Virus record (IMG/VR): IMGVR_UViG_3300008450_000452
Span: 1 to 23,771 of that record
Strand: one strand, 5' to 3'
Source: a virus
Length of the DNA: 23,771 nt
The translations under genes were made by a program, and so were the position numbers. Positions 657-18,963 of the stretch are shown here, piece by piece. The notes beneath the pieces were generated by a model. That model had not been told where the DNA came from. It saw only the letters and a list, made by a program, of their open reading frames with translations, and did no database searches. Within the stretch, counting starts at the first letter, position 1; each line of letters starts with the position of its first letter.

Positions 657-1262
657 ATGGTATATAAAGGAATAGATCCTAATGGTGTAAATAAAATAGA
701 TAGTGGCTCAGTTGGTATTTTTGTAGAAAATACTCAATCCATTACTTTACGAAATGATGGTTTTGTAACTATAGGAAATGTACCTGCTCCCGATAAATTA
801 TTTCAAGTTGGTGGTAATGTTAGAGCAAATGCTTTTTATGGTGATGGCTCTAATTTAACTGGTGTTGGTGCTTTACCTTTTCCATTTACAGGATCTGCTT
901 TAATATCAGGATCTGTAGTAATTAATGGAGTATTACATGCGACAGAAAAATCATTTAATATTGTTCATCCAACACAACCAGGTAAACGCCTAGTATATGG
1001 AGTTTTAGAAGGACCTGAACATGCTGTTTACTCAAGAGGTAGAATTCATTCAAATGTGATAGAATTACCTGAAGAATGGACTGGATTAGTAGATGAATCA
1101 ACTATAACAATACAATTAACTCCTGTAGGAAGTTATCAAGCTGTATATGTTGATAAAGTAAAAGATAATAAAGTATATATTAAATCAGAAGACTACATTG
1201 ATTGTTTTTATTTAATATATGGTGAAAGAAAAGACATTAACAAGTTACAAATAATACAATAA
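657..1262 (+). CDS. Tail fibre protein with conserved C-terminal domain
   Basis: A 201-residue fibre protein. The N-terminal half carries fibre-type segments (VGIFVENTQSITLRNDGFVTIG; FYGDGSNLTGVG) and then a FPFTGSALISGSVVING module at about residues 75-91, which also occurs in other fibre genes of the window. The C-terminal half (about 96-201) is a distinct domain beginning KSFNIVHP, continuing LVYGVLEGPEHAVYSRGR and ending in FYLIYGERKD. I recognise this domain from the C-termini of many T4-like phage fibres; it could be a receptor-binding or trimerisation tip. The stop codon overlaps the next start as TAATG, suggesting coupled translation with the giant adhesin downstream. Confidence 0.7.
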   Translation: MVYKGIDPNGVNKIDSGSVGIFVENTQSITLRNDGFVTIGNVPAPDKLFQVGGNVRANAFYGDGSNLTGVGALPFPFTGSALISGSVVINGVLHATEKSFNIVHPTQPGKRLVYGVLEGPEHAVYSRGRIHSNVIELPEEWTGLVDESTITIQLTPVGSYQAVYVDKVKDNKVYIKSEDYIDCFYLIYGERKDINKLQIIQ

Positions 1263-4200
1263 TGGCAACTATATTTTCAAAATCAGGTTCATTTTATGGA
1301 ACAGCTTCTTTTTATGATCCTAATATTTGGGATGGTGGAATTGTTCCAACAAATGATGATTCGATTTTTATTAGAGGTATTCAAAAAACAGTTTCTCAAA
1401 ACTATACATACTGGGCTGGTACTCAAAGTTTTTTTCTACTTAATAATACAACTGATTTACCTCCTACAGGTTCTTTATATACTTACACTGATAGAGATCA
1501 ATTAGTAAAATTAGATTACAGAGGTATTTCAGCATCTGCTTTATTAGCAGTTACTGTAGATAAATCTGCAAGTTATCCTTGGGGTGAAGATTTTTATAAC
1601 GGATACGTTAGTAGACCTTTTGGTGGTATTGGAGATGCTTCTTTCCCATCTAAAAAAGGAGGTTCAATATTAAATAATTCTATAATCCAATATAGACCAG
1701 GAACCATTGTGTTATCTGGTTCAGCAACAGCAAGTATTTTAAGAACAAATATTGAATTTGGAGGTGTTTTAGAATTAAGAGATTCAAGTACTTATTATAT
1801 AAATAATTATATTACAGCTAGTGGAGGTACGTTTGCTATGTATGATTCATCTAGTGCTATATGGAATTTACCATGGCCTTCAGCTTCTGATGCCAACACT
1901 CCTGAATCAGCTTTAAATACAAATGGATATCCTTTATTTTCAGCTAGCTTTATAGGTGTAGTTCAATCTCCTTTTTCCCAACTTATATTAGAAGGAAGCG
2001 AAGTTAGAACTAATACTACTTTAAGTTTAAATGTATCTTTTGGAGATGCTTATTTGTCTGTAGTATCTGCTTCTAAATTTGAAGTAGGAGATATGATTTT
2101 TGTAGGAGAAGAAGATATAGATTCCCCTAGAGAAGATAATGGTATAAAAAGCATATATGGTGATAATTTATCTTCATATGATGAAAACTTTATAGTAGCT
2201 GGTAAAGATATAGGAAGTGTTCCTAATAGATTATATATTCAAAGAATGAATGGGCTAGAAGGAAAAGTTTTAGCTACATCCTCAGCAACTGAACTTATAG
2301 TAGATGAAGATAGATATCAAGTAGGAGATACAATAGTTGTAAATAATCAAGTAAGAACTATAACACAAATAGATGATTATGATTTACTTTTAAAAGATTA
2401 TGACTTTACAGATCCTTCAGCTTCTTTAAGCGAGTGGGAAGTTGATCCAACAAGAGGACCTTCATTTCAAAACTGGAATATAGCTCGTGGAAAAGGTTTA
2501 ACATTACAAGCAACAGAGGCTTTAAACTCATTTCGATCAACTTATATTAAAAATCTCTTTTTAGAAAGGGTAAAAATAGAAGCCTGGGTAAGTAACCAAA
2601 CACCAATTTCAGGTGGACTATCTTCTCCTGCTTTTAGAGATCAACAGCCCTATGCTGTTGTTGCTCATGCTGATCCTTTAATAGATAATGATATAACTAC
2701 TATGGTTGTAGGAACCGTTTATGGTCAACCAGCTTATAGATCATATATGGGAATTAATCCTAATGCCACCTCATCTTTTATGGCATCTAAAAACTCAGTT
2801 AGCAATGCTTATTCTGCAAAACCATATATTATAGGTATTAAAGATATAGAAGATGAGCATAAATTAACTTATGAAAATTATAAAGGATTTTCTAAAGGTT
2901 ATATTGATGATATATTAATATTTGAAGAAATAAATAGAGGAGGCAGTTGGGGAAGAGTAGGTATTAATACTACTAACTATAAATTTATATGTACAAGATT
3001 TAAAGTATATAATAAATGCCAAAAAATCACTCTTAATTCAGGAGTAACAGTTTCTATAAATGATAAAGTATTTGAAACAGGAGCAGAATATACCCATAAT
3101 TCAGGGCATAAAGTTATTAAATTAAGTTCAACTATAACTAATACTTTAGATTTAAAAAATAAAGCATTTGCTTTTCAAGGTGCTGAAGAATATGAAAATA
3201 ATGGAGTTTACCCTTATATTTACTCTATTAACCAAACTCAATCAATAAGAGTAGTAGCTGATGTTGCACAAACCCAATATGGTCTTCCATTAGTAGATAA
3301 TTATGTTCCATCTATAAATGGTTATCAACTTCCAACTCTATCACCATCAATGAGTTTTACTTTTGATCTAACTACTACAATGTCTTTTAACTATTTTGGT
3401 TTTACAGACAACTTTATTCAATTTGGTCAAGATTATACTTCATCCGAAAATGGTGGTTTATCATTATCTGGTTCTAATGATTTATTTAACTGGACCCCTA
3501 TAACAGGAGGAGCAGATTTTAGAAGAAGATATACTCAAGGACATTTAAGAGATTGGAATTTACCTGTTACTCACTCCTTTAGATATTTAAGATTCCAATT
3601 ATCTGCTGTTACTAATGGAAATCCTAACCAACAAACTTATAATTTATCTAATGGGTGTTTAAAAAGTTTTGTTATAAGAAGTGGTAGTTTAAATACGTTT
3701 GTTGTAAATAATGCTTCTGATTTAAATATTGGAGACCATATAGGAATATATCCTACTAACCCACCAGGTACCCTAAGTGCAAACCGTTCATTGAAATATT
3801 CATTTTTAGTACAACAAAGTTCATCAATTGACCCACCTGAAGATTATTTTGTAATTACCGGAAAAAGCGGAAATACTTTGACAGTAGATAAAAATATTAA
3901 TTTTACAGTTAATAAAGGATCTTATGTAGTTAAATTAAATAGAAACATAAACATTTATGGAAATTATGCTTCTGGTTCATTAAGAACAGGAAGAATAGGG
4001 GTGTATGGTGTGAATAATACCACATTTCAATCATTTTATAGATGGAAAAATGTAGCTATTAGACATGTAATTGATGGTTTTCCTAACTTTAGCGGAAATA
4101 CAAATACAAATCAATCTACTAACTACGGTAGTATAGGAATACAATATAATAATTCATGGATTCCTTGGAGATTGCAGGGATGTTCTTTTTATGATATAGG

Positions 4201-5554
4201 ATTAAATGGTGGATTTAACTGGGGTATTTCATTTAGTATTGGTAATAACAAAGGAAATATTCATATAAGAGGAAATATATTTCATTTTAATTTTAATCAA
4301 GGAACAGGTGGTCTAAATTCTGTCAACTTACCATATATAATAACATCAAATTTCTTCACATATAGTGGTAATGGAGCTGGGATTTATAATTTTTCTGGAT
4401 TACATATAAACTCATATAATGTATATATAGGAATCAACACTCCTATAGGAACATATTTCCCTCAGAATCGTAATTTTAGTGCAAATGGGTTTGAATATAT
4501 GGGGGGAAGACAAATTGTTATAAGAAATTATAATAATACTGTTTTTAATATAGCCACTATTCAAACAACTAATGATTCCACAACTACTGGAAATACGGGA
4601 TATTACTCAGATATGTACGTAGATAATGTAGTAAAAGGAAATTATCTAATAAATGGATTAAGTACAATAGCTCAACAACCAGTAGTTAACTATTTTACTA
4701 ATATATTTTCTCCTGTAGAAAACATGATGTTACCTGCTAGAGGCGGAATTGATGGTAATTATCATACTACTAAAAATCCATATGGTTTAATAAACTTTGC
4801 TACCAACATACCTCCAGGTAATTTAACTAGTTATTACAAAAATTATAATAAATGGGGATATGATGTTTATACTAATAATAGAGGTTGGATAATAAAAGAA
4901 CCAAATAACGATTGGTATAAATTTTATCATTTTTCTTCTAGTTTAATAACAGGTGTTGGTAACTTAGCTGATACTCGTAACTTGTTTATGTCGGCTAATG
5001 TTCATATATTTGACACATCAACAGCCTCTTTTACAGTAGGATTTGATTATTATAATGATACAAGCCAAATTGTTCAAGATAGAAGTGCTTTAGCATTTAA
5101 TTTAGATAATTCTTTTATATATTATGATTATACTCCTGTAGTTGATGGATTAGCACCTTGGACTTATACTCAAAGTATTAGTTTTGTTCCTTCTAGTGCT
5201 TCATATGTTGGTGGATTAGTATTGCAAATTTATAAAAATGGTAATCTTTTAGAAAATCCTCTATTATTACCTAAAAGAGCAGAACCAACTCATTTTGAAT
5301 ACACATTTAATCTATCAGGATCTGGACTATATCAAATTGGTTTAGCTCAAGATGCTTCTCCCCAAGGATATTTAGCTATGAAGAATATTTGGAGTAGATT
5401 TAATGGACCACAAACAAGTAGTGTTATGGTAAAACAAAATACTTTTACTATGGCTATGTTTGGTGGTGCTGATGCTCAACAATATAGAAATGTTAATAAC
5501 CAATATCCTCAAGTAAATCCTAAATTTAGATTAAAAGGCGCAAAATTATTCTAA
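1262..5554 (+). CDS. Giant G8/CEMIP-like beta-helix adhesin or tail spike (paralogue 1)
   Basis: A 1430-residue virion protein, probably a receptor-binding spike. Apparent domain order: residues 17-210 G8-like (NIWDGGIVPTNDDSIFIRG, then GG-centred beta repeats such as INNYITASGGTFAM); 250-380 two 'VGD' beta modules (KFEVGDMIFVGEED, RYQVGDTIVV); 385-590 a LamG/concanavalin-like sandwich (GYIDDILIF, WGRVGI); 660-805 a discoidin-like domain (GFTDNF...LSGSNDLFNW...FRYLRFQL); 815-900 another GD module ending VVKLNRNINIYG; 905-1200 a parallel beta-helix; 1230-1400 a C-terminal sandwich; final residues FRLKGAKLF. The G8, then 'LNRN', then beta-helix order recalls CEMIP/TMEM2-type proteins, but the RYPIHFH motif typical of that family is not seen, so enzymatic activity is unproven. 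It is paralogous along its full length to the 1347-aa protein at 5824. Confidence 0.6.
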   Translation: MATIFSKSGSFYGTASFYDPNIWDGGIVPTNDDSIFIRGIQKTVSQNYTYWAGTQSFFLLNNTTDLPPTGSLYTYTDRDQLVKLDYRGISASALLAVTVDKSASYPWGEDFYNGYVSRPFGGIGDASFPSKKGGSILNNSIIQYRPGTIVLSGSATASILRTNIEFGGVLELRDSSTYYINNYITASGGTFAMYDSSSAIWNLPWPSASDANTPESALNTNGYPLFSASFIGVVQSPFSQLILEGSEVRTNTTLSLNVSFGDAYLSVVSASKFEVGDMIFVGEEDIDSPREDNGIKSIYGDNLSSYDENFIVAGKDIGSVPNRLYIQRMNGLEGKVLATSSATELIVDEDRYQVGDTIVVNNQVRTITQIDDYDLLLKDYDFTDPSASLSEWEVDPTRGPSFQNWNIARGKGLTLQATEALNSFRSTYIKNLFLERVKIEAWVSNQTPISGGLSSPAFRDQQPYAVVAHADPLIDNDITTMVVGTVYGQPAYRSYMGINPNATSSFMASKNSVSNAYSAKPYIIGIKDIEDEHKLTYENYKGFSKGYIDDILIFEEINRGGSWGRVGINTTNYKFICTRFKVYNKCQKITLNSGVTVSINDKVFETGAEYTHNSGHKVIKLSSTITNTLDLKNKAFAFQGAEEYENNGVYPYIYSINQTQSIRVVADVAQTQYGLPLVDNYVPSINGYQLPTLSPSMSFTFDLTTTMSFNYFGFTDNFIQFGQDYTSSENGGLSLSGSNDLFNWTPITGGADFRRRYTQGHLRDWNLPVTHSFRYLRFQLSAVTNGNPNQQTYNLSNGCLKSFVIRSGSLNTFVVNNASDLNIGDHIGIYPTNPPGTLSANRSLKYSFLVQQSSSIDPPEDYFVITGKSGNTLTVDKNINFTVNKGSYVVKLNRNINIYGNYASGSLRTGRIGVYGVNNTTFQSFYRWKNVAIRHVIDGFPNFSGNTNTNQSTNYGSIGIQYNNSWIPWRLQGCSFYDIGLNGGFNWGISFSIGNNKGNIHIRGNIFHFNFNQGTGGLNSVNLPYIITSNFFTYSGNGAGIYNFSGLHINSYNVYIGINTPIGTYFPQNRNFSANGFEYMGGRQIVIRNYNNTVFNIATIQTTNDSTTTGNTGYYSDMYVDNVVKGNYLINGLSTIAQQPVVNYFTNIFSPVENMMLPARGGIDGNYHTTKNPYGLINFATNIPPGNLTSYYKNYNKWGYDVYTNNRGWIIKEPNNDWYKFYHFSSSLITGVGNLADTRNLFMSANVHIFDTSTASFTVGFDYYNDTSQIVQDRSALAFNLDNSFIYYDYTPVVDGLAPWTYTQSISFVPSSASYVGGLVLQIYKNGNLLENPLLLPKRAEPTHFEYTFNLSGSGLYQIGLAQDASPQGYLAMKNIWSRFNGPQTSSVMVKQNTFTMAMFGGADAQQYRNVNNQYPQVNPKFRLKGAKLF

Positions 5555-5561
5555 CAGTTAA

Positions 5562-5569
5562 TATTTATA
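5562..5569 (+). promoter_or_regulatory. TATTTATA octamer, candidate late-gene signal
   Basis: Exact copy within ATATTTATAA, 6 nt before the ATG at 5576, in the only gap between the two giant adhesin genes. Confidence 0.45.
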
Positions 5570-5575
5570 ATTAGT

Positions 5576-5824
5576 ATGAATGATGTTATAAAAATTCTCG
5601 GTGAAAGATGGACTTATGTTTACTCATCTCTTTATTATGGTCTTTGGGAGTATGATAAAGAAACTCATGAGTTAAAAACAGAAAACACAGTTTCATTTTT
5701 AATAAGTGAAATTGACCAACGAATTGAAGAAATAAAAAAAGAATTAGAAAATCCAGATGCTGATCCTTCTTATCAAGCAGCATTAGATTATTTATATAAA
5801 ATAAAAGAAAAATTAAATAACTAA
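5576..5824 (+). CDS. Small acidic helical protein between the adhesin paralogues
   Basis: An 82-residue soluble protein that I do not recognise. The first half contains aromatic residues (WTYVYSSLYYGLWEYDKE). The second half (about 45-82) is rich in Glu/Lys and predicted helical, with heptad-like spacing in ISEIDQRIEEIKKELEN and a second helix near the C-terminus. There is no signal peptide or membrane segment. It is preceded by an octamer and overlaps the next adhesin start by one base (TAATG), so it is probably made together with that adhesin. Size and position would suit a dedicated fibre-folding chaperone or a small clamp, but this is inference from context alone. Confidence 0.6.
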   Translation: MNDVIKILGERWTYVYSSLYYGLWEYDKETHELKTENTVSFLISEIDQRIEEIKKELENPDADPSYQAALDYLYKIKEKLNN

Positions 5825-8800
5825 TGCCAGTTAGATTCGCTATATCAGGTGCTTTTTACCCCGGAAATTCAGCTTCATGGAATGATACTTCTATTTGGTA
5901 TGGAGGTATAGTTCCAACAGCAAGTGATCAAGTTTATATTAGAGGTTTAAGAACTACAGTTAACTTAGCTGGTGGTTATTTACCATTTTTTGATACTCAA
6001 TCTATTACAGTAGCTTCTACTGTTGGTTTTCCTATATCAGGTTCATTTTATACTTATACTGATAGAGATGAAGAACTTAAATTTAATTACATAACATGTA
6101 GTGCCACTTCATTTATTAGTGCTTCAATTGATTTAAGTTATTATTCATGGAGTTATAGTGTATACCCATTAACTCAATCGTTACCTTCTAAATTAGGAGG
6201 TACTATTCCTAATGGTGCTTATGTACAATTTAGACCAGGAACTATATTCATTACCCCAGCTATGGGAGAAATTGTTTTAACAAGTTCATTAACAGATCCT
6301 GCTTTAACTATTGAAAACGGAGGAGATGTTAGGATGAGAAGCGGCAGTAGTTTAGGATTAGGTGGTTATTTACTTTTAAATGATGGAACTTTTACAATGA
6401 CTGGTTCTGGTTTATTTAGATTTAATAACAATTATCCATCCCAAAGCGCAGAAGGTGGTGTTATAAGAAACATTAATGGGATTGTAGCTAACGATCAAAA
6501 CTTACAGTATTTAATTGTTGAAGGAGATGAAGTTAGAACTAATACAATTTTATCTCAAAGTGCAAATATTGGAGATCATTATATAACAGTTAATAGCACT
6601 ACAGGATTTGCCATAGATGATGATATATTTGTTGGAGAAAAAAATTTATCTCAATCTAGAACTGATAATGGTTTTAGAGGTCAATATGTAGGTGCATTTT
6701 CTTCTTGGGATGAATGTTTTGAAGTAGCAAGTGTTGATGCAGGCTTAAAAAGATTATATATAAAAAGATTTAGAGGATTAGATGCTAATATTAAAGCTAC
6801 TGCCTCTGCTACTGAATTAATTATAGATGGTGAACGTTTTAAAGCAGGAGACAAAGTATTAATAAACAATGAATTAAGAACTATTACTTCTGTAACTAGT
6901 AGTTATGATTATCTTTTAAAAGATTATAATTTTTCAACTGGATCCGATTTATCAGATTGGACTACAGACATTACACGTTCTGTAAACTACAATGACTGGA
7001 CCTTATCTTCAAGTTATGGATTAACACAATTTACTACTACAGCTTACAGACATATATTTGTAAGAGATATTATGTTAGATAATGTTAAAGTAGAAGCTTG
7101 GATTTCAAACTTAAGAGGAATATCAGCGGGTTCAGCTAGTAGAAACGAATATGGAGTATATATTCAGTCTGAACCTTCAGTAGACACAGATTTAGGTATT
7201 CCAACATCAACAAACCAACCATTAAGAACAGCATTTACAATAGTTCCTTCTGTTTCTAGAATGAATTTAAGACAGAAAAATGTCGATAATGACGTTATAC
7301 TTAATGTATACACAGGAAGTTATCCTATAGATGGTTTAAAGAAAATTACTTTAGAATCAACTAGAGGAATGGTAAGAGGATATGTTGATGATACTTTAAT
7401 TTTTGATGAAGTGATAAGAAATACTCCTTATTGGGGTAGAGTAGGTTTATACACAAATGGTAATGATGCTTTTGTTTGTACTCAATATAAAGTTTATGCT
7501 AAGTATACTAAAATAACAGTTGATTCTCCTATTACAGTTGCAATTAATGATGTTATAAAAGAAACAGGGGTAGAATATAGTCATGCTTCTGGAAATCAAG
7601 TAATTAAATTAACATCAACTGTAACTGATCCTTTAGAATTTAAAGATTTAGCATTTGCTTATAGAGGAGCAGAAGAATATCAAATCACTTCTAGCGACCA
7701 AGGTATATTTCCTTTTGTATACGCAACTAACTCTTCAGGAAGTTTTAACTTAGACTGGACTAGATTTACATTAAATGTAGGTGATTATGTTACTGGTTAT
7801 GCTTTAGGTACTGGTTTTACAAGAAGTGTGATTTTAGATTTTGGTAAACCTGTTACTTTTAATAGAGTAGGCTTTTTAGAGAGTGTTTTAACTAATGGTC
7901 AAAGCTTTACAGCATCTAGAGGTATTCAATTTTCAGGAAGCAATAGTGTAACAGGTTCAGCCTTAGCATTTACAGCTTCTAACTGGGTTGCTTTAACATC
8001 TTCAATTACTGATTTTAGAAGAAGAACAAGTAATGAAACTTTTAGAAGTTTCAATATAGGAGGTCCTCATACTTATAGATTTTTAAGAATTGAGACTCAA
8101 GGATTAACTCAAGCAACTACAGCAGATAATACATTTAGATCTTTTAGAGTACGTTTAAATTACTCTAATAGTATTCAATTAAATAATACTTCTGATTTAA
8201 ATATTGGAGATGAAATTGCTTTAATTTCTAGATATAATATTGCTCCTATATCAGCTATAACAAACTATTCTTCATTATTATTTGCAAGTTCAAGTTTAAC
8301 TACAGCGAGCTTTTTAGATAGTTTTACTCAACATTATAAAATCATTAGTAAAAGTGCGGGAAATGTTATTTTCTTAGATCAGCCTTTTGAAGAAGGTAGT
8401 CCTGAAAAAGGAGATACAGTAGTAAAACTAAACAGACAACTAAAATTTTCAGGATCTTTCAACTCAAGTTCAGCGGCTTGGGATGTAGGAAGAATAGCAG
8501 TATTAGGATCAGGAACAGCTCGTTTTGTTAGAAGAATTAAATTTGATAATGCTTCTTTCCAACATTTAGTAGGACAATTTCCATCTGTAGGTGGAACAGC
8601 TGCTCAACTCCCATATTCTGGATTTACTTTAAATGAACAAAACTGGTATAATTATATGGGGTTAGTACAAGGATGTACTTTTTATAATAACTATAACTTT
8701 ACCGCAGCCGGTTTTGGACTACTATTCTTTAACAGATCAGGATACGCTACTCGACATAATTTCATTTCAGGATTTCATACAATACAATTAACAGGAGTAA

Positions 8801-9867
8801 ACTCTAACTTTGCATCACCAATTATTGCTACCGGAAATATTATTTATGGTGTAACATCACAAGCAGGTTTACCAACAAATTTTAGTCAAACTATTTATTC
8901 ATATAATATGAACTACGCTGGAGGTAATATTCCGTTACCTTCAACTACCGGTTATAATGCTAAGTATACTACTCCATATAATTCAATTTATTTTGTAAGA
9001 AGAAACCATGTTGAAGGAGCTACAGGAACTATGACTTATGCTCAAACTATTACTAATTTTGGTACTCAATATACTATAATTATAGATAATAATAGATTAG
9101 GATTTATACACCAAGCAAACGGTGTTTTATTCTTAAACTCATATTTAGATAAAGCTTTTGAAACACCCTTTTTATTACCTAAAAGAGGCGGATTTGATGG
9201 TAGAAGATTATCTACAACTAACCCCGGTGTAAACTTTGCATCTTTCACAACAGCTTCTTATACTTTACCTCAACATAATCTTACTGGTTATATTAAAAAC
9301 CATAATAGATTAGGATACGATATTTGGTCAAATCCTTTAGGTTGGTGGGTAAAACCCCAAGATGATCCTTACTATAGATTTTATAGATTTTTTGTAAGTG
9401 ATTGGAGAGACCCAATGTTAGGATCTTATTTGTGGTTAAATGAAGGTGTAAGTGCTAGTTTTGATGTTAATTTTGATTATTATGTAACCCCATCTATAGC
9501 ATGGCAGGCTGAACAACAATATAGTGGTGCTTTGTATATGATTGTTTTGAAAAATGGAGGTGAGTTGCAAGAACAATTTACTTTACCTAAAGTAACATCC
9601 CCAACAAACTTTAGTAGAACATTTAGTTTAACAGGATCTGGCCACTTCCAAATAGCATTAGCTGGTTTAGCTACACAAAACGGATATGCTGCCTTTGCTA
9701 ACATTTCAAGTAGATTAGTTGCTCCTAATACTCACGATGTACAAGTATTTTCTAATAATTTTAATTTAAGATATTTTAATAATGAAGAATTATTAGATGC
9801 TAAAACAATGTACAATCAAACCCCAACCGATCCGTTATTTAGATTAAAAGGAGCTAGAATATTCTAA
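5824..9867 (+). CDS. Giant G8/CEMIP-like beta-helix adhesin or tail spike (paralogue 2)
   Basis: A 1347-residue paralogue of the protein at 1262, collinear from end to end. Matching landmarks include ASWNDTSIWYGGIVPTASDQ (G8-like start), GDEVRTNTILSQSANIGDHY, ATASATELIIDGERFKAGDK, GYVDDTLIFDE with WGRVGL (LamG-like), FNRVGFLES...GIQFSGSNS...YRFLRIET (discoidin-like), DTVVKLNRQLKFSG leading into GRIAVLGSG, a beta-helix with VQGCTFYNN, FLLPKRGGFDGR, and the same C-terminal ending FRLKGARIF. The G8-like and GD modules and the C-terminal end are best conserved, while the beta-helix region (about 860-1100) has diverged most. That pattern fits a shared virion-attachment and folding frame carrying different receptor-binding faces. 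No catalytic residues can be named. Start is at a TAATG overlap; the stop overlaps the next start the same way. Confidence 0.6.
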   Translation: MPVRFAISGAFYPGNSASWNDTSIWYGGIVPTASDQVYIRGLRTTVNLAGGYLPFFDTQSITVASTVGFPISGSFYTYTDRDEELKFNYITCSATSFISASIDLSYYSWSYSVYPLTQSLPSKLGGTIPNGAYVQFRPGTIFITPAMGEIVLTSSLTDPALTIENGGDVRMRSGSSLGLGGYLLLNDGTFTMTGSGLFRFNNNYPSQSAEGGVIRNINGIVANDQNLQYLIVEGDEVRTNTILSQSANIGDHYITVNSTTGFAIDDDIFVGEKNLSQSRTDNGFRGQYVGAFSSWDECFEVASVDAGLKRLYIKRFRGLDANIKATASATELIIDGERFKAGDKVLINNELRTITSVTSSYDYLLKDYNFSTGSDLSDWTTDITRSVNYNDWTLSSSYGLTQFTTTAYRHIFVRDIMLDNVKVEAWISNLRGISAGSASRNEYGVYIQSEPSVDTDLGIPTSTNQPLRTAFTIVPSVSRMNLRQKNVDNDVILNVYTGSYPIDGLKKITLESTRGMVRGYVDDTLIFDEVIRNTPYWGRVGLYTNGNDAFVCTQYKVYAKYTKITVDSPITVAINDVIKETGVEYSHASGNQVIKLTSTVTDPLEFKDLAFAYRGAEEYQITSSDQGIFPFVYATNSSGSFNLDWTRFTLNVGDYVTGYALGTGFTRSVILDFGKPVTFNRVGFLESVLTNGQSFTASRGIQFSGSNSVTGSALAFTASNWVALTSSITDFRRRTSNETFRSFNIGGPHTYRFLRIETQGLTQATTADNTFRSFRVRLNYSNSIQLNNTSDLNIGDEIALISRYNIAPISAITNYSSLLFASSSLTTASFLDSFTQHYKIISKSAGNVIFLDQPFEEGSPEKGDTVVKLNRQLKFSGSFNSSSAAWDVGRIAVLGSGTARFVRRIKFDNASFQHLVGQFPSVGGTAAQLPYSGFTLNEQNWYNYMGLVQGCTFYNNYNFTAAGFGLLFFNRSGYATRHNFISGFHTIQLTGVNSNFASPIIATGNIIYGVTSQAGLPTNFSQTIYSYNMNYAGGNIPLPSTTGYNAKYTTPYNSIYFVRRNHVEGATGTMTYAQTITNFGTQYTIIIDNNRLGFIHQANGVLFLNSYLDKAFETPFLLPKRGGFDGRRLSTTNPGVNFASFTTASYTLPQHNLTGYIKNHNRLGYDIWSNPLGWWVKPQDDPYYRFYRFFVSDWRDPMLGSYLWLNEGVSASFDVNFDYYVTPSIAWQAEQQYSGALYMIVLKNGGELQEQFTLPKVTSPTNFSRTFSLTGSGHFQIALAGLATQNGYAAFANISSRLVAPNTHDVQVFSNNFNLRYFNNEELLDAKTMYNQTPTDPLFRLKGARIF

Positions 9868-11249
9868 TGGGAAAAGATATAAGAATATATCCATCACAAA
9901 GCCAAGTACTATTCTCAGGAAGTAGCAATGAAATACTGGCTTCAATTAGTACAGATAATATGGGTAACCTTATATTATCAGCATCTAATGATGTGTTATT
10001 TGGTCCTGGTAAAAATGATATTTACATAGGTGATGGTACCCAATCAGCTAATATTATTTTTGATATTGATGGCGCTATTAAATCAGCACCAGGCAGTGGA
10101 GCTACAATTACTTTAGGTTCTACAGATACTCCTATTGTAATTACTGGTAGTACAGTTGATATTGCTGGGGGAAATTTAGAATTAGGAACTTTTACTGCTT
10201 CTTACGCTAAAATATCTAATGCTTCTTTAACTGGTAGTTTATCTGCTAGTTATGTATTTACTCCTATATTAAGTGCAAGTAATGCTAATATAGTTAATAT
10301 TACTACAAGTAATATAACGGCATCCACATTAACTCTTCTACAAAACCAAGGATTATATTTTAATTATAGTTCATCAGTTACTGGTGGAGCTATATTTTTA
10401 GATAATTTAGGAAACCTTGTATTAAATAGCAATTCAGGTAGTGTTTATTTATCAAAAGGAGTCCAAGATGTTTACATAGGTGATGGTACTAGCTCAGCAA
10501 ATATAGTATTTGATTTTGATGGTGCTATTAAAGGTGAAGATGGACAAAATGTATTTTTAACAGTAGGTTCTTCATCAACCAGATTATTAATAACAGGCAG
10601 TACTTTAAATATAGGACCTTTTACTGCTTCTTATGCTAGAATTAATGATGGTGCTATAACTGCTAGTTTTGTAAGTTCAAGTGGACCTATTACCGCAGCT
10701 AATTTAACTGTATCAAATTCTATATCAAGTAAAACAATAAATTCTAACACAGGTAGTTTTGGGTATTTTACATCAAGTGTAATTAACTTAAATCCTAATG
10801 GGGGTATTTATATTACAAGCAGTGATGGGACTAAAGGCGGTAGTATTTACTTAGACCCTGTAGGAAATTTACAATTCACATCAGTATCAGGAAGTGTATT
10901 TTTAGGAAAAGGCACTGGAGACATTTACATCGGAGATGGTACCTCATCAGCAAATATTATTTTTGATCAAGGTGGAGCTGTTAAAGCAGGAAATGGTGTT
11001 ATATTAAATATAGGTTCAAATTTATCTTTTATAGAAGCAACAGGTTCAATAATTACTCTTCAGAAAAATGGAGGTAATGTTGTAATCAGTGGTTCTTTAA
11101 TAGCATCTAGTTCAAAAGTATCCCCAACTTCATCAGGCATTCCTGCATTTACGGGAACAGACGGACAATTTATGTTTGGAAGTTCAGGAGGTAATCATTA
11201 TATTTACGTGTGGATGAGTGGTGCTTGGAGATCAAGTTCTTTATTGTAA
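9867..11249 (+). CDS. Modular tail fibre with three 150-residue repeats
   Basis: A 460-residue fibre-like protein made of three homologous modules. Each contains a GNLxLxS...G strand pair, the motif D[IV]YIGDGT.SANI.FD, an A[IV]K turn, and an ITGS-type strand. The motif begins at residues 51, 201 and 352, so the period is 150-151 residues. The first two modules are followed by FTASYA[KR]I linkers. The C-terminal knob (about 415-460) reads PAFTGTDGQFMFGSSGG...YVWMSGAWRSSSLL and is a plausible trimeric tip. The gene is joined to the preceding adhesin by TAATG and is the last gene before the neck cassette. No enzymatic motif is visible. It is probably a tail or collar fibre; the position just upstream of gene 13 is that of fibritin (wac) in T4, but I see no sequence similarity to fibritin. 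Confidence 0.65.
   Translation: MGKDIRIYPSQSQVLFSGSSNEILASISTDNMGNLILSASNDVLFGPGKNDIYIGDGTQSANIIFDIDGAIKSAPGSGATITLGSTDTPIVITGSTVDIAGGNLELGTFTASYAKISNASLTGSLSASYVFTPILSASNANIVNITTSNITASTLTLLQNQGLYFNYSSSVTGGAIFLDNLGNLVLNSNSGSVYLSKGVQDVYIGDGTSSANIVFDFDGAIKGEDGQNVFLTVGSSSTRLLITGSTLNIGPFTASYARINDGAITASFVSSSGPITAANLTVSNSISSKTINSNTGSFGYFTSSVINLNPNGGIYITSSDGTKGGSIYLDPVGNLQFTSVSGSVFLGKGTGDIYIGDGTSSANIIFDQGGAVKAGNGVILNIGSNLSFIEATGSIITLQKNGGNVVISGSLIASSSKVSPTSSGIPAFTGTDGQFMFGSSGGNHYIYVWMSGAWRSSSLL
10017..10967 (+). repeat. Three copies of the YIGDGT module motif
   Basis: Copies of a 16-residue motif begin at 10017, 10467 and 10920, that is 450 and 453 bases apart. The copies have diverged at the DNA level, so the duplication is old. 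They mark three internal modules of the fibre gene. Confidence 0.8.
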
Positions 11250-11269
11250 AATATTTTAGACCGTTTTAA

Positions 11270-11277
11270 TATTTATA
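11270..11277 (+). promoter_or_regulatory. TATTTATA octamer before the neck cassette
   Basis: Exact copy in AATATTTATAA, 13 nt before the ATG at 11291, in the 41-nt gap that separates the first fibre block from gp13-gp14-gp15. Confidence 0.45.
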
Positions 11278-11290
11278 ACAAAATATTACT

Positions 11291-12442
11291 ATGGCTAACA
11301 TCCCAATATATCCTGGTTCATCATCATTCTTCCCAGGAATGACTCCTTTTGGATTCTATGATAATGACTACCAGTTCCAAACAGACGCAGATAAAGTAAC
11401 TAGATTTTGTGCTTTACGTTTAGGTTATCCTATTGAAAATGTTGAACTACAAGATTTAAATTTTTATACTGCTTTTGAAGAAGCAATAACTGTGTACGGT
11501 AATGAGTTATATGCTTTTCAAGCCAGAGATAATTATTTGTCTTTAGAAGGTGTAAATACAGGTTCTAATTTAAATAATGCTTTAATAACTCCTAGTTTAG
11601 GTCCTATTATAAAATTATCTCAACAATATGCTGAAGAAGCAGGCACTGGAGGTAATGTAACTTGGTATAGTGGTTCAATTGCTTTAACTTCTAGTTTACA
11701 AGATTATGATTTAACTAATTGGGCAATTTCTCAAAGCATTACCGGAGGGATTGAAATTAAAAGAATATTCTATGAAGGTACTCCAGCAATTAATCAATTG
11801 TATAGCCCTTGGGCTGGCTTAGGCCCCGGTACTACAGCAGCTGTTGGTTTAATGGGTTTAGCTGGTTATGGACCTTCAACTAACTTTGTTTTAATGCCTT
11901 TAAGTTATGATATGGCTAATATTAATGCTATTGAAATGAGTAATGATGTTAGATATTCTAATTACACTTTTCAATTAGTAAACAATAAATTAAGAATATT
12001 CCCTATTCCTGGCACTGATGATGAAGGATCTCAATTATGGTTTAATTACATTAAAACAGATGATAGATATAATTCAGCAATAACACAAGCTCCAGGTAAA
12101 ATAAATAACATTAGTAAAGTACCATATAATAATCCTACTTATGCTAATATTACTTCAATTGGTAGAAGTTGGATTTTTGAATATACTTTAGCTTTATGTA
12201 AAGAAATGTTAGGATATGTTAGAGGCAAATACTCAACAATTCCTATTCCCGGTGCTGAAGTAACTTTAAATCAAGGAGATTTAATAACTGCTGCTACTTC
12301 AGAAAAAGAAGCTTTAATTACACGATTAAGAGACTTTTTTGACCAAACCTCAAAACAATCTTTACTTGAAAGAAGAGCAGCAGAATCAACAGCTCGCCAA
12401 CAAGAAATTAATCAAGTACCAATGACAATTTATATAGGATAA
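11291..12442 (+). CDS. 13: Neck protein gp13 homologue (T4-like)
   Basis: A 383-residue homologue of T4 gp13, one of the two neck proteins that seal the filled head and make the site where the tail joins. The family pattern is clear: near the N-terminus KVTRFCALRLGYPIENVEL...FYTAFEEAITVYGNELY corresponds to the T4 stretch containing LRRLGAPIINVEL and ALELYGE. Near the C-terminus WIFEYTLALCKEMLG...IPIPGAEVTLNQGDLI...EKEAL corresponds to the T4 stretch WVKDYATALAKELNG...EKEAL. It is about 70 residues longer than T4 gp13 (309 aa), with an N-terminal extension (residues 1-30) and Gly-rich central loops (about 155-195). It is followed by gp14- and gp15-like genes in the T4 order, one base separating it from the next start. 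Confidence 0.88.
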   Translation: MANIPIYPGSSSFFPGMTPFGFYDNDYQFQTDADKVTRFCALRLGYPIENVELQDLNFYTAFEEAITVYGNELYAFQARDNYLSLEGVNTGSNLNNALITPSLGPIIKLSQQYAEEAGTGGNVTWYSGSIALTSSLQDYDLTNWAISQSITGGIEIKRIFYEGTPAINQLYSPWAGLGPGTTAAVGLMGLAGYGPSTNFVLMPLSYDMANINAIEMSNDVRYSNYTFQLVNNKLRIFPIPGTDDEGSQLWFNYIKTDDRYNSAITQAPGKINNISKVPYNNPTYANITSIGRSWIFEYTLALCKEMLGYVRGKYSTIPIPGAEVTLNQGDLITAATSEKEALITRLRDFFDQTSKQSLLERRAAESTARQQEINQVPMTIYIG

Positions 12443-12443
12443 T

Positions 12444-12965
12444 ATGGCTTTATACGGAGAAGCACGTGATATAAGTTTATTTAGACATATTAACCGTGAG
12501 TTAATGGGAAATATTATTTCACAAGAAGTAGTATTTTATAAATGTAATATTACAGAAACTAAAGTAAATATGTATGGTGAAGCATCTAGTGGAAGAGCAT
12601 TTGAACCACCAGTTTTATTAAATGCTTTAGTAGAAAGAAATGACCAAACTTCTCCTATTCAAGATGATGAAGTAGGATTTGCATGGCCTATTACTTATAG
12701 ATTTTTAAGAGATGATTTAATTGATGCTAATGTTGTTCCTGAAGTTGGTGATTTTGTAATGTATAGAGAAGGATATTGGGAAATAGATAATACAAATGCT
12801 AACCAATATTTTGTAGGTAAAGACCCACAATACCCATATTATGATGATAATAGAAACAACCCACTAAATCCAGGATTAGAAGATTATGGTTATAATGTTT
12901 CTATTATATGTAATGCTCACTATGTACCTGCGGATAGATTAAACATAATTAAACAAAGATTATAA
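12444..12965 (+). CDS. 14: Neck protein gp14 homologue (T4-like)
   Basis: A 173-residue protein in the gene-14 position. In T4, gp14 works with gp13 as head-completion/neck protein. The N-terminus (LFRHINRELMGNIISQEVVFYKC) would match the segment of T4 gp14 that ends in CYYVPRE. The clearest motif is VGDFVMYREGYWEIDNTNANQYFVGKDP at about residues 104-131, equivalent to the T4 stretch GDLIYFPMDNSLFEINWVE. The rest of T4 gp14 (256 aa) is absent, so this is a short form. Identification rests on the motif and on being between gp13 and gp15; similarity alone would be weak. It overlaps the next gene as TAATG. Confidence 0.75.
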   Translation: MALYGEARDISLFRHINRELMGNIISQEVVFYKCNITETKVNMYGEASSGRAFEPPVLLNALVERNDQTSPIQDDEVGFAWPITYRFLRDDLIDANVVPEVGDFVMYREGYWEIDNTNANQYFVGKDPQYPYYDDNRNNPLNPGLEDYGYNVSIICNAHYVPADRLNIIKQRL

Positions 12966-13816
12966 TGGCTAAACAAAGAAAACCTATACCAAAAACACAA
13001 AAAGAGATAGCTAATTCTTTAGTAACTCCTTATGATCAAGAACAAGGTAATCCTAATAATGCTGTTCCTAATCCAAAAAATAGAGCATTACAACAATCTT
13101 GGAGAGATGATACTGTAAAACCATACACTGTTGGTATTCAAGACATTGATGAGGCTGTTTTTTATTATTTAGAAAATGTTATTAAACCAACTGTAATACA
13201 AAATGGTGAATCAATTCCTGTTCCTGTGTTATATGCTTCTCCTGAAAAATGGAAATCATACCAAAAAGATGGATATTTAAGAGATTTAAAAGGTAGCTTA
13301 ATGGCTCCTTTAATTATTTTTAAACGTAATAATATTGAAAAAAATAAATCATTAGCAAATAAATTAGATGCTAATAATCCTAACAATTATGGAATATTTC
13401 AAAAATCATATGACCCAAGAAATGCGTATGATAGTTTTTCTGTACTAAACAATAGAAAACCAGAAAAACAATATTATGCTGTTGTTGCTCCAGATTATGT
13501 AACTATAACTTATTCATTTATTATTTTTACATATTATGTAGAACAATTAAATAAAATAGTTGAAGCAATGAATTATGCTTCAGAAGCATACTGGGGTAAT
13601 CCTGAACGTTTTAAATTTCAAGCTAAAATTAATTCATTTGGTTTTCAAACTGAATTAAATGAATCCGCAGAACGAGTAGTTAGAAGTACATTTGATGTTA
13701 ATTTGCATGGTTATATTATACCTGATACTATACAAAAAGACACAACAGCTATTAATAAATTTAATAATAAAACTAAAACTACAATCTTTTTTGAAACTAC
13801 TGATAGTATAGATTAA
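12965..13816 (+). CDS. 15: Tail sheath stabiliser gp15 homologue (tail terminator)
   Basis: A 283-residue homologue of T4 gp15 (272 aa), which forms the hexameric ring on the head-proximal end of the tail, stabilises the sheath and connects tail to neck. Family landmarks appear in order: IPVPVLYASPEKWKSY at about 79-94 (T4 IRVPITYASKEHFM), DYVTITYSFIIFTYYVEQLNKIVEAM at about 177-202 (T4 MIYELSIFTRYEDDMFQIVEQI), and VVRSTFDVNLHGYIIPD near the C-terminus (T4 RIEWSLTFEVNGWMYPP). The first 50 residues are basic and polar and probably flexible. Translation is likely coupled to gp14 upstream and to the large fibre gene downstream through TAATG overlaps on both sides. Confidence 0.9.
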   Translation: MAKQRKPIPKTQKEIANSLVTPYDQEQGNPNNAVPNPKNRALQQSWRDDTVKPYTVGIQDIDEAVFYYLENVIKPTVIQNGESIPVPVLYASPEKWKSYQKDGYLRDLKGSLMAPLIIFKRNNIEKNKSLANKLDANNPNNYGIFQKSYDPRNAYDSFSVLNNRKPEKQYYAVVAPDYVTITYSFIIFTYYVEQLNKIVEAMNYASEAYWGNPERFKFQAKINSFGFQTELNESAERVVRSTFDVNLHGYIIPDTIQKDTTAINKFNNKTKTTIFFETTDSID

Positions 13817-16266
13817 TGGCCCTACTAACAAAACCTGGTTTAATACAATTAAAAATTGAAGACAGCGGGCAACTAATAACTACCCAAGTCAATAAAATCA
13901 ATTTTTCAGGGTCAGTTTCTGCTTCTGTAGGAAATTTTAATGATGTTGTAATAACAGTAGGAGTTCCAGATACTGCTTCTTGGGCTATAAGTGCCTCTCA
14001 AGCAATAAGTTCTTCTTATGCTTTAAGTGCTTCTTATGCTTTAAGTGCTTCTAGTGTTGTAAGTGCTTCTTATGCTTTAAGTTCATCATTTTCATTAACT
14101 GCTTCTTATGCTGCTAATGCTGCTTCTTTTCCGTATACTGGATCTGCTCAAATTACTGGGTCAGTAGGAATTACTGGATCTTTTGATCAATCGGGTTCTT
14201 CTAATATATTTTTAAAAGGTTTAATAAATCAAACAACAGCACAATCGCATGTTGTTACTTTTAACAATACAACTGGTCAACTGTTTATTACCGCGTCATC
14301 CGCATTTGGTGGTGGAGGTGGTGCTGGTACACCTGGAGGCGCTAATACAACAATACAATTCAATGATGCTGGTGTATTAAGCGGTAGTGGAAATTTTACT
14401 TTATTAGGAAGTAACGCTGTTAGTTTAACTGGTTCATTATTAGTGACAGGATCTACTAGATTAATAGGTAATATTACTGGATCTTCTTTCACAGGTTCAT
14501 TTACTGGATCTTTATTTGGAACTAGTTCTTGGGCAGTATCAAGTTCACGAGCAATAAGTGCATCTTATGCAGCTACATCCTCTTATGCTCAAAATATAAT
14601 AATTTCAGGATCAATAAATAATGTAGATTATATTGATTTTAATACAGGGTCTGCTGTACCGGCTTGGAAATCAGGTAGGGTATTCTGGGATAATACAGAT
14701 GGGGCATTATCTGTTTATAACTTTGAACAAGATATTACTCTACAGGTAGGTCAAGAAAACTGGACTAGAGTATCAAACCGTACAGGAACTACTATAACTA
14801 ACGGTACTGTAGTTAGACTTAAAGGGGCACACGGGGATGTACCAGAAGTAGAATTAGCTCAATCATTATTAGTATCAGGTAGTGTTAATCTTCAAAATCA
14901 AATTTTGGGTGTTGCAACTCACGATATTGAAGATAACTCAAAAGGTTTTATTACCACTCAAGGACTAGTAAGAGGGTTAAACACAAATGCTTTTAATGAC
15001 GGAGATACTTTATTTGTTGGTACTGGATCTGCTGGGATTTTACAAAATACACCACCCGTTGCTCCTTATGAAATTATTCCTGTTGGTGTTTGTGTAAAAG
15101 CATCACCTGGAACAAGCGGAATCATATATGTTGCTGTACAAGAACCAATAGATTTTAGTGATTTAAGTTCTGTATTAGTGACTGGTTCTTATCATTATGG
15201 AGATATTTGGACTTATATTCCAAGCGGATCTACAGGTGTTTGGGCCCATACAAACCAACTTTCAGGGTCATACGGATTAACAGGTAGTTTAGAAGCTACT
15301 TCATTTACCGGTTCATTTACCGGTTCATTAACAGGAACAAGTTCTTTTGCTATAAGCAGTTCTTGGGCTGTAAGTGCTTCTAGAGCAATAACATCATCCT
15401 TTGCTTTAACCTCTTCTTGGGCTATAAGTTCATCTGTTGCCTTAAGTTCTTCTTGGGCGGAAAGTGCTTCACAAGCAATAAGTTCTTCTTATGCTTTAAG
15501 TGCTTCTTATGTTTTAAGTTCATCTTTTGCTTTAACAGCGTCAAATGCTAATTCATCAAGTTTAGTTTATATTGCTTCAAATCCATCAACTGATGTAAAT
15601 TATACTTTAGTATTTAAAAACAACTCATCTGCTTTAGACAATTATCATCCTTTAGCAGCTGATGGTACTAATGGTCCTTACTATAATCCTTCAACTAATA
15701 TATTAGGAGGAGTAGGAGGAATAACAATGTCTGGAAGTATTGGTAGATTTAATACTATTACAGGCAGTACATCTATTACAGGTTCATTAACCGGTTCATT
15801 ATTAGGTACAGCTTCATTTGCAACTACTGCTTCTTTTGCCTTATCAGCCAGAGCATTCCCATATTCAGGCTCAGCTGAAATTACAGGATCTTTAGGAGTT
15901 ACAGGAAGTATTTATCAAATCTCACCATCAACACAAACATCAGCAAGCCAAGAATACATTGATATGACTATAGGTCTAGGTACAGTAGCTATATTTAATA
16001 AACCTTTTGCTATTCCTATGTCTGTATTTTTAGAATATTTTATTATCGACACTATATCAGGAGCAGATCAAAGAGCAGGAACTATAATGGCCAGTTTTAA
16101 TAATACTGGCACTCCAACTGAAGTGTTTACTGAAACCACCACTAATGATATAGGCAATACTACAGCTATGACTTTTGCTGCTGTTTCAACTCCTAATTTT
16201 GAAATCCAAGCAACTAACACTGGAGCTAATGTTTATCAACTTAGAGGTACTCTTCGATATTATTAA
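13816..16266 (+). CDS. Large repeat-rich tail fibre with an embedded conserved domain
   Basis: An 816-residue fibre. The N-terminus (1-50; MALLTKPGLIQLKIEDSGQL) may anchor it to the virion. It then carries hexapeptide arrays of the form [ST][AS]S-x-A-[ILV] at residues 53-106, 236-259 and 508-579, and a FPY[TS]GSA-x-ITGS module at 105-122 and 681-698. Between arrays lies a non-repetitive domain (about 268-455) starting near VDYIDFNTGSAVPAWKSGRVFWD and containing VGQENWTRVSNRTGTTITNGTVVRLKGAHGD, a LGVATHDI strand and IPVGVCVKA; I recognise this domain type from other phage fibres but know no activity for it. The C-terminal domain (about 700-816) is a probable beta-sandwich tip (GTIMASFNNTG...YQLRGTLRYY). 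It begins directly on the gp15 stop codon, so it is expressed with the neck genes. Confidence 0.7.
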   Translation: MALLTKPGLIQLKIEDSGQLITTQVNKINFSGSVSASVGNFNDVVITVGVPDTASWAISASQAISSSYALSASYALSASSVVSASYALSSSFSLTASYAANAASFPYTGSAQITGSVGITGSFDQSGSSNIFLKGLINQTTAQSHVVTFNNTTGQLFITASSAFGGGGGAGTPGGANTTIQFNDAGVLSGSGNFTLLGSNAVSLTGSLLVTGSTRLIGNITGSSFTGSFTGSLFGTSSWAVSSSRAISASYAATSSYAQNIIISGSINNVDYIDFNTGSAVPAWKSGRVFWDNTDGALSVYNFEQDITLQVGQENWTRVSNRTGTTITNGTVVRLKGAHGDVPEVELAQSLLVSGSVNLQNQILGVATHDIEDNSKGFITTQGLVRGLNTNAFNDGDTLFVGTGSAGILQNTPPVAPYEIIPVGVCVKASPGTSGIIYVAVQEPIDFSDLSSVLVTGSYHYGDIWTYIPSGSTGVWAHTNQLSGSYGLTGSLEATSFTGSFTGSLTGTSSFAISSSWAVSASRAITSSFALTSSWAISSSVALSSSWAESASQAISSSYALSASYVLSSSFALTASNANSSSLVYIASNPSTDVNYTLVFKNNSSALDNYHPLAADGTNGPYYNPSTNILGGVGGITMSGSIGRFNTITGSTSITGSLTGSLLGTASFATTASFALSARAFPYSGSAEITGSLGVTGSIYQISPSTQTSASQEYIDMTIGLGTVAIFNKPFAIPMSVFLEYFIIDTISGADQRAGTIMASFNNTGTPTEVFTETTTNDIGNTTAMTFAAVSTPNFEIQATNTGANVYQLRGTLRYY
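13972..14133 (+). repeat. Hexapeptide repeat array A (18-bp unit)
   Basis: Nine consecutive six-residue units such as TASWAI, SASQAI, SSSYAL, SASYAL. Some neighbouring units are nearly identical in DNA (GCTTCTTATGCTTTAAGT recurs), which points to recent expansion or gene conversion. Confidence 0.8.
14521..14592 (+). repeat. Hexapeptide repeat array, short
   Basis: Four units (TSSWAV, SSSRAI, SASYAA, TSSYAQ) following a SFTGSFTGSLFG segment. The same order is found at 18469 in another fibre gene. Confidence 0.75.
15337..15552 (+). repeat. Hexapeptide repeat array B (18-bp unit)
   Basis: Twelve units of the pattern [ST][AS]S-x-A-[ILV], for example SSSWAV, TSSFAL, SSSYAL. It follows a SFTGSFTGSLTG segment. 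Unit length is constant at 18 bases with no frame breaks. Confidence 0.8.
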
Positions 16267-18366: not shown

Positions 18367-18963
18367 ATGCCAAGCTGGAAAAAAATAATCACATCAGGAT
18401 CGGCGGCTATCCTAACTAATGTAACCGCATCATCTTATACAGGATCATTTACTGGATCTTTATTTGGAACATCGTCATGGTCTGTATCTTCTTCTAGAGC
18501 AATTACTTCATCTTATTCTTTAGTATCATTATCTAGTTCATATGCATTATCAGCGTCATATGCTCCTGGAGGTGCTGCTTTTCCTTATACAGGTTCGGCT
18601 ACAATAACCGGATCTTTAGTAGTTACGGGACGCATTACATCAACTGAAAACGTTGAAGCCCAAGTTAACTTAAAATCAATGTACCAATCCGGAGATGAAG
18701 GTGGAGAAATATTCCTTAATACTCCTGCAACAAGTACAACTATTAATAACGGTGTTAATATTGATGTTTATCAAGATAAGCTTCGTTTTTGGGAAGATGG
18801 TGGAGTAAATAGAGGATTTTACTTAGATATACCGTCAGGAGCTCCAGGAGTAGGAACAAATTTAAAACCAACCGGTTTTACAGGTACAGTCACAATTATA
18901 GGAAATCCTCCGGGTCAACAAAATTTAAACTATACAGATGGTATTTTAATTAGTGTGACTTAA
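18367..18963 (+). CDS. Tail fibre protein with SWKK anchor and hexapeptide array
   Basis: A 198-residue fibre. The N-terminus MPSWKKIITSGSAAIL matches that of the fibre at 16649. It is followed by SYTGSFTGSLFGTSS, a hexapeptide array (residues 35-67) and the FPYTGSATITGSLVVTG module (72-88), the same order of cassettes as in the 816-aa fibre. The C-terminal half (about 95-198) is unique: LKSMYQSGDEGGEIFLNTPA, a KLRFWEDGGVNRGFYLDIPSG strand pair, and TDGILISVT at the end. This tip probably gives the protein its specific contact. It looks like a chimera of shared shaft segments with its own tip. The leader upstream is structured. Confidence 0.65.
   Translation: MPSWKKIITSGSAAILTNVTASSYTGSFTGSLFGTSSWSVSSSRAITSSYSLVSLSSSYALSASYAPGGAAFPYTGSATITGSLVVTGRITSTENVEAQVNLKSMYQSGDEGGEIFLNTPATSTTINNGVNIDVYQDKLRFWEDGGVNRGFYLDIPSGAPGVGTNLKPTGFTGTVTIIGNPPGQQNLNYTDGILISVT
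18469..18567 (+). repeat. Hexapeptide repeat array C
   Basis: Units TSSWSV, SSSRAI, TSSYSL and SASYAP with one irregular spacer. The first two units closely match those at 14521 in the 816-aa fibre gene. Confidence 0.7.

Follow-up and report, generated by a model that had tools for sequence, protein, structure and literature searches.

Tandem giant proteins in the tail locus of a T4-like phage, with a predicted TMEM2-like beta-helix plan and inserted lectin-like domains

The ectodomain of TMEM2 (PDB 8C6I) is a beta-helix from its N-terminus, with the G8 region forming the first turns and a carbohydrate-binding-type domain (a POMGNT1-type lectin) inserted into the helix after these turns; no hyaluronidase activity was detected for pure TMEM2 (PMC10206443). 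Among phage tailspikes, LKA1gp49 carries an insertion and a discoidin-like domain (PMC5701251), as is predicted for the phage proteins considered here. We found no description of G8 or TMEM2 in phages in the literature. The present analysis concerns two giant proteins, A and B, encoded in IMG/VR record IMGVR_UViG_3300008450_000452, positions 1–23,771; this whole stretch of 23,771 nt is referred to as the window. A sequence-only reading had described them as tandem paralogues in a phage tail locus that recall CEMIP/TMEM2-type proteins.

The tail locus is confirmed, A and B lying in a contractile-tail cluster of T4-like type, where the PHROG search identifies genes for the sheath, the tube, and the head-tail adaptor. 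Scans of IMG/VR revealed relatives of A and B in seven other contigs, five of which (L001, L006, L007, L009, and L011) carry the tandem in unchanged order, while two (L010 and L012) have single relatives. The main genes of the window are as follows.

657–1262, + strand: 201-aa tail-fibre-tip-like protein, overlapping the start of A (PHROG 28536, E = 2e-35)
1262–5554, + strand: giant protein A, 1430 aa, predicted G8/TMEM2-like beta-helix protein with inserted lectin-like domains (ORF; paralogue of B; orthologues in L001, L006, L007, L009, L011)
5576–5824, + strand: 82-aa ORF between A and B, conserved in L001, L009, L011
5824–9867, + strand: giant protein B, 1347 aa, predicted architecture as in A; the protein that was modelled (ORF; models; TMEM2 match)
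11291–12442, + strand: head-tail adaptor, downstream of A and B (context; PHROG 211, E = 2.5e-10)
20224–21921, + strand: tail sheath (context; PHROG 23, E = 2e-73)

The nearest cultured relative of the tail sheath is that of the Flavobacterium phage immuto, a T4-like myovirus (56% identity), and thus, judging by sheath similarity, the host likely belongs to Bacteroidota. The 201-aa protein has relatives in immuto and in cyanophages (tblastn); the large structural proteins encoded close to this tail-tip gene in cyanophages were considered as G8 candidates and rejected, as they are PA14 proteins. In immuto (L008, 18600–20955) the A/B block is absent between the PhoH gene and the head-tail adaptor, and L006 has A and B at this very spot. 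The 82-aa ORF is missing from L006, and in L007 (14394–14532) the first 46 codons of this ORF precede B as an in-frame fusion.

Both giant genes are intact and lie on one strand, with start and stop codons overlapping those of the adjoining genes. A and B align end to end with 33% identity (608 bits), and hence are full-length paralogues, as had been proposed. The motifs noticed earlier are also present, namely, WDGGIVP (A, residue 23), WYGGIVP (B, residue 25), and VVKLNR starting at residue 889 of A and residue 866 of B. Phylogenetically, the A proteins and the B proteins fall into two distinct groups, each moderately supported (77/87 and 78/76) and with a strongly supported core of five sequences; the duplication therefore predates the split of the six contigs. 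A near-invariant KFRLKGARLF-type tail (5528–5554 and 9841–9867 in the window) ends all 12 A/B proteins and is not seen on the two single-copy relatives; it is possibly a virion-attachment or assembly signal. The L010 relative (10001–13966) is not part of a recognisable tail module; its neighbour is a LamG-repeat-like protein, and the phage has apparent queuosine-pathway genes and a GroEL-like gene (judged by eye). The predicted domains are listed below; those of A are placed by alignment to B.

5863–5973, + strand: B residues 14–50, G8-type opening strand/cap with WYGGIVP (hhalign vs. bacterial G8 proteins, P = 7e-5 to 3e-4; the motif also occurs on unrelated phage solenoids)
5974–6273, + strand: B residues 51–150, beta module that interrupts the G8 region (lying between the two segments matched by hhalign and without a G8 equivalent there; strands in the model)
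6274–6528, + strand: B residues 151–235, second half of the G8 region (hhalign P = 1.7e-5 with alignment A6; marginal Pfam G8 hits at the equivalent position of the L007 and L011 orthologues)
6529–6918, + strand: B residues 236–365, first VGD beta modules (aligned by hhalign with the bacterial G8 turn SWTKL...GDEIILAS)
6919–7521, + strand: B residues 366–566, concanavalin A/LamG-like lectin domain (Foldseek CBM66, E = 1e-6; VIA Z 16 to CBM66 and to the galactocerebrosidase lectin domain)
7699–8163, + strand: B residues 626–780, F5/8 type C (discoidin)-like domain (relatives have sub-cut-off Pfam matches at the corresponding position)
8164–8439, + strand: B residues 781–872, last VGD module, LDQP strand and VVKLNR strand (hhalign vs. 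bacterial G8/CEMIP proteins, P = 2.1e-8 with alignment A5 and 2.6e-7 with alignment A3)
8440–9303, + strand: B residues 873–1160, parallel beta-helix, the most variable region (VIA Z 9.8 to TMEM2, 260 residues aligned, and at most 10.9 to phage depolymerases; almost every orthologue pair is least identical here)
9310–9723, + strand: B residues 1163–1300, C-terminal CBM4-like beta-sandwich (VIA Z 8.1 to CBM4-2, 125 residues aligned; Foldseek)
1295–1999, + strand: A residues 12–246, G8-like region split by an insertion
2393–3034, + strand: A residues 378–591, LamG/ConA-like domain
3200–3688, + strand: A residues 647–809, F5/8C-like domain
3689–4846, + strand: A residues 810–1195, last VGD module with VVKLNR (889–894) and beta-helix
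4853–5407, + strand: A residues 1198–1382, CBM4-like C-terminal domain

The position of the genes bears on whether their products belong to the virion at all. G8 proteins are in many cases secreted by cells or displayed on their surface, and the L010 gene stands apart from the tail genes, as might be expected if A and B were non-virion secreted accessory enzymes (morons) residing inside the tail cluster; however, A and B overlap the adjoining genes of a structural operon, their tandem order is fixed in six contigs, and both proteins start with the G8 cap itself, no leader segment preceding it, making this explanation very improbable.

Relatives of A and B were found neither in about 50,700 cultured-phage records (tblastn with A and the L010 and L012 proteins as queries) nor in bacteria (genome collection scan with alignment A2), and tblastn against cultured phages with a G8 consensus query also gave no match. 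Direct hmmscan of A and B vs. Pfam and PHROGs, and phmmer of A vs. PDB, yielded nothing significant, profile searches of PDB with alignments A2 and A6 (hmmsearch) produced chance hits only, and the whole family has no match in PHROGs and NCBIfam; in Pfam, it shows only sub-threshold F5/8C and marginal G8 hits. Thus, the family is undescribed in the resources searched (Pfam, PHROGs, NCBIfam, cultured-phage records, and literature). The best Foldseek match of the B model is a viral protein of 896 aa, BFVD A0A516M121 (E = 1.8e-11), which, as far as the model goes, may be a cultured-virus relative of the fold.

The structure of B was predicted with AlphaFold2 in two parts. The model of residues 1–1200 has a mean pLDDT of 64, with many blocks at 75–90 (within residues 1–370, in the LamG-like domain, and in the VGD modules), and is poor beyond residue 1000, positions 1004–1150 being mostly below 50; the model of residues 780–1347 has pLDDT 59. 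VIA-align was used as a second look at the candidates provided by Foldseek. In this comparison the TMEM2 ectodomain (8c6i) is the top match of the first model (Z 18.5, rmsd 4.0 Å over 382 residues, B 14–1161 superposed on TMEM2 chain 118–830), followed by ConA-like lectins on B 360–564 (Z up to 16.6), whereas in plain Foldseek CBM66 comes first and TMEM2 is absent from the top 50. Hence, as a moderate-confidence prediction, B has the G8-capped beta-helix fold of the CEMIP/TMEM2 ectodomain, and the fold comparison agrees with the order of elements suggested by the sequence-only reading.

The second model matches TMEM2 415–885 (VIA Z 9.8, rmsd 4.0 Å over 260 residues) and, with Z 8–11 (best 10.9, at an rmsd near 8 Å), phage depolymerase spikes, so that the predicted parallel beta-helix also resembles that of the spikes. 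The beta-helix suggested earlier is therefore predicted, its second half with low confidence. These matches raise the possibility that A and B are enzymatic tailspikes, with a helix that would cleave a capsule or an exopolysaccharide held by the lectin domains. The beta-helix half resembles Klebsiella phage KP32gp38 and other depolymerases at these Z-scores, Foldseek ranks the enzymatic domain of CBA120 TSP4 first for this half (E = 2e-4), and judging by the models the proteins are possibly depolymerases. However, beta-helix similarity alone does not demonstrate activity, the CEMIP RYPxHxH motif is absent, and none of the helix carboxylates is invariant over the 12 A/B proteins, the closest being D1109 and D1125, conserved in at least 10 of the 12. 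All this considered, we regard an enzymatic function as possible but rather unlikely.

Kinship to G8 proteins was assessed at the profile level. Bacterial G8 proteins were fetched using a G8 consensus as the query, and Pfam then confirmed that these were real G8 proteins; the set comprises a plasmid-borne G8 protein from Croceibacterium (Pfam G8, E = 3e-30; CEMIP_beta-hel, E = 7e-86) and its relatives, 99 proteins in all, with two other members also strong for both domains. The hhalign comparison of the 14-member phage family with this set yields three co-linear segments: alignment columns 15–47 of the phage family on 57–90 of the G8 set, 155–264 on 98–207, and 748–910 on 160–306 (P = 3.1e-4, 1.6e-4, and 2.6e-7, respectively; 2.1e-8 for the last one with the C-terminal alignment alone), vs. 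the best P of 0.05 for a reversed profile and 0.078 for the best of 60 column shuffles. The SWTKLA...GDEIILAS turn (bacterial 160–207) is matched on either side of the phage insertion, which suggests, as far as the alignment goes, that the inserted domains are flanked by two copies of this turn that arose by duplication.

The G8 assignment of the sequence-only reading stands at this profile–profile level, where the matches are significant and co-linear, and fails at the level of Pfam: G8 (PF10162) gives no hit on A or B of the window, and the best scores in the family, 13.3 bits for A of L007 and 12.7 bits for A of L011, lie below the cut-off of 22.9. Likewise, the CEMIP/TMEM2-type order is upheld by the TMEM2 superposition, but CEMIP_beta-hel (PF24606) does not match the A/B family members scanned, in contrast to E = 7e-86 for the bacterial protein, and the RYPxHxH helix motif occurs in none of the 14 phage proteins compared to 82 of the 99 bacterial ones. 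Formally, A and B thus fall outside the G8 and CEMIP families, and the claim can be kept in the form of a TMEM2-like plan, with a kinship that is distant and seen at the profile level.

The W-x-GG-x-VP opening is present in 13 of the 14 family proteins (WYEGIVP in the remaining one) and, with the glycine-rich second half, follows the G8 order, being co-linear with bacterial G8 proteins in hhalign. The opening alone was rejected as evidence for G8, since it is carried by unrelated phage solenoids, which match G8 at the cap only (P = 3e-4); going by its occurrence in sequences, it is a generic solenoid cap in phages. Shorter beta-solenoid proteins with this motif are encoded at 4640–5998 and 6001–8151 (in tandem) of L105 and at 5977–7248 of L103. 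One could therefore suppose that A and B are ordinary phage beta-helix fibres whose likeness to G8/TMEM2 is convergent, built of a generic cap and VGD modules, the more so as the C-terminal half scores generic phage beta-helices as high as TMEM2. We consider this unlikely: as the control solenoids match the G8 profile at the cap only, the opening is weak proof by itself and the VGD–LDRP–KLNR stretch is the informative part, and the A/B family also matches this stretch up to the helix (LDRP-(K)LNR-helix), in co-linear order and with a 382-residue TMEM2 superposition covering both sides of the insertion.

The data support interruption of the A/B helix by ConA/LamG-like (CBM66-like) and discoidin-like domains. 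The LamG-like insertion claimed earlier is well supported by the predicted structure, B 360–564 having a ConA-like jelly-roll fold (CBM66, E = 1e-6 in Foldseek; VIA Z about 16). The discoidin-like insertion is backed by matches of PF00754 (F5/8C) at the homologous place in relatives, all below the cut-off of 28.2 bits (24.8 bits, E = 2.5e-5 for A of L007; 13.9 bits, E = 0.061 for B of L006), and by its sister family PF22633, also at the homologous place and below cut-off, in the L010 protein (E = 3.5e-4). Lectin insertion had been considered an unusual architecture, which is not so for this fold, as TMEM2 has one as well; the insertion site relative to TMEM2 was judged from the alignment ranges. 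The CBM4-like sandwich at the C-terminus of B (Foldseek probability 1.00 to CBM4 and to the EclA sugar-binding domain, E = 1e-3 to 1e-2) had been overlooked. In outline, however, the architectural insight of the earlier reading was right.

The two giant genes diversify strongly against their surroundings. In the L001 cluster, the neck genes are 100% identical to those of the window, and the proteins of the three genes at 11291–13816 are identical, while identity is 43% for A and 79% for B. The beta-helix is the least conserved A/B region, or tied close, in eight out of nine compared pairs. This variability, combined with three carbohydrate-binding-type folds, fits glycan-binding host-recognition proteins. 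In the same cluster, where many structural genes are 92–100% identical, two genes for serine-rich repeat proteins with SSSYALSASYAL-type runs (13816–16266 and 18367–18963; 49% and 38% identity to L001, respectively) are as variable as A, and are candidates for further host-range genes.

In T4, genes for short fibres and whiskers occupy the slot that immediately precedes the head-tail adaptor. Since A and B sit in this place and contain several lectin-type folds, they might instead form a whisker-like head/neck decoration that binds environmental glycans or extracellular matrix and raises encounter rates, not acting as infection receptors; this is quite unlikely, as a role in host range would better explain why A and B diversify so strongly next to neck genes that do not vary.

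We consider it probable that A and B are glycan-binding virion adhesins, each a beta-helix of the G8/TMEM2 plan with plugged-in carbohydrate-binding domains. They would serve as spikes or fibres in the tail/neck region of a T4-like myovirus with tail genes nearest to those of a Flavobacterium phage. A G8-type cap and the first turns would start the long helix, ConA/LamG-like and discoidin-like domains would then be plugged between copies of the VGD turn, and the VVKLNR strand, the main beta-helix, and the CBM4-like sugar-binding domain would follow. Most likely, the lectin domains and the fast-evolving helix bind a host surface polysaccharide, and the two diverged copies may provide two binding specificities. 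What the analysis demonstrates is the paralogy, the conserved order of the tandem, the predicted fold assignments, and the pattern of hypervariability; virion incorporation, glycan binding, and the receptor role we infer, and hyaluronan as a target is unsupported. Points against this reading are the modest confidence of the models, the absence of TMEM2 from the top 50 of plain Foldseek, the scores below the Pfam G8 and CEMIP_beta-hel cut-offs, the L010 relative, which stands apart from tail genes and has no KFRLKGA tail, and the fact that no separate N-terminal anchor domain is seen.

More tentatively, with the balance slightly against it, these proteins could represent a phage branch of the G8/TMEM2/CEMIP superfamily serving as virion adhesins, with lectin-type inserts at approximately the TMEM2 site. 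If so, phage spikes and animal hyaluronan-handling proteins share one scaffold with interchangeable lectin inserts; the G8/TMEM2-type scaffold becomes a further one among those listed for phage receptor-binding proteins; and fast-evolving microbial relatives with exchanged lectin inserts become available for the CEMIP/TMEM2 fold, the active site of which is unsettled. As the family is absent from the databases searched, it would also help to annotate adhesins in uncultured T4-like phages.

Compared with known systems, the predicted A/B architecture is closest in plan to TMEM2/CEMIP2, with which it shares the G8 first turns and a lectin-type domain inserted into the helix; the insert is of the POMGNT1 type there and ConA/LamG-like plus discoidin-like in the phage proteins, the C-terminal domain is unlike (CBM4-like in A/B), and A and B are phage-encoded and have no RYPxHxH motif. 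With bacterial G8 proteins (PF10162 and PF24606), they share the co-linear cap, second G8 half, VGD turn, LDRP strand, and LNR/LTRN strand, but in the bacterial proteins G8 leads straight into the helix with no lectin insertion, and A and B fall below both Pfam cut-offs. The tailspikes KP32gp38, CBA120 TSP4, and LKA1gp49 similarly have a parallel beta-helix followed by a carbohydrate-binding-type sandwich; they differ from A and B, which have no separate N-terminal anchor domain or demonstrated active site, and carry a G8-type cap and lectins inserted near the N-terminal end. Finally, B 360–564 is alike in fold to CBM66 and other ConA-like lectins, at an identity of about 13%.
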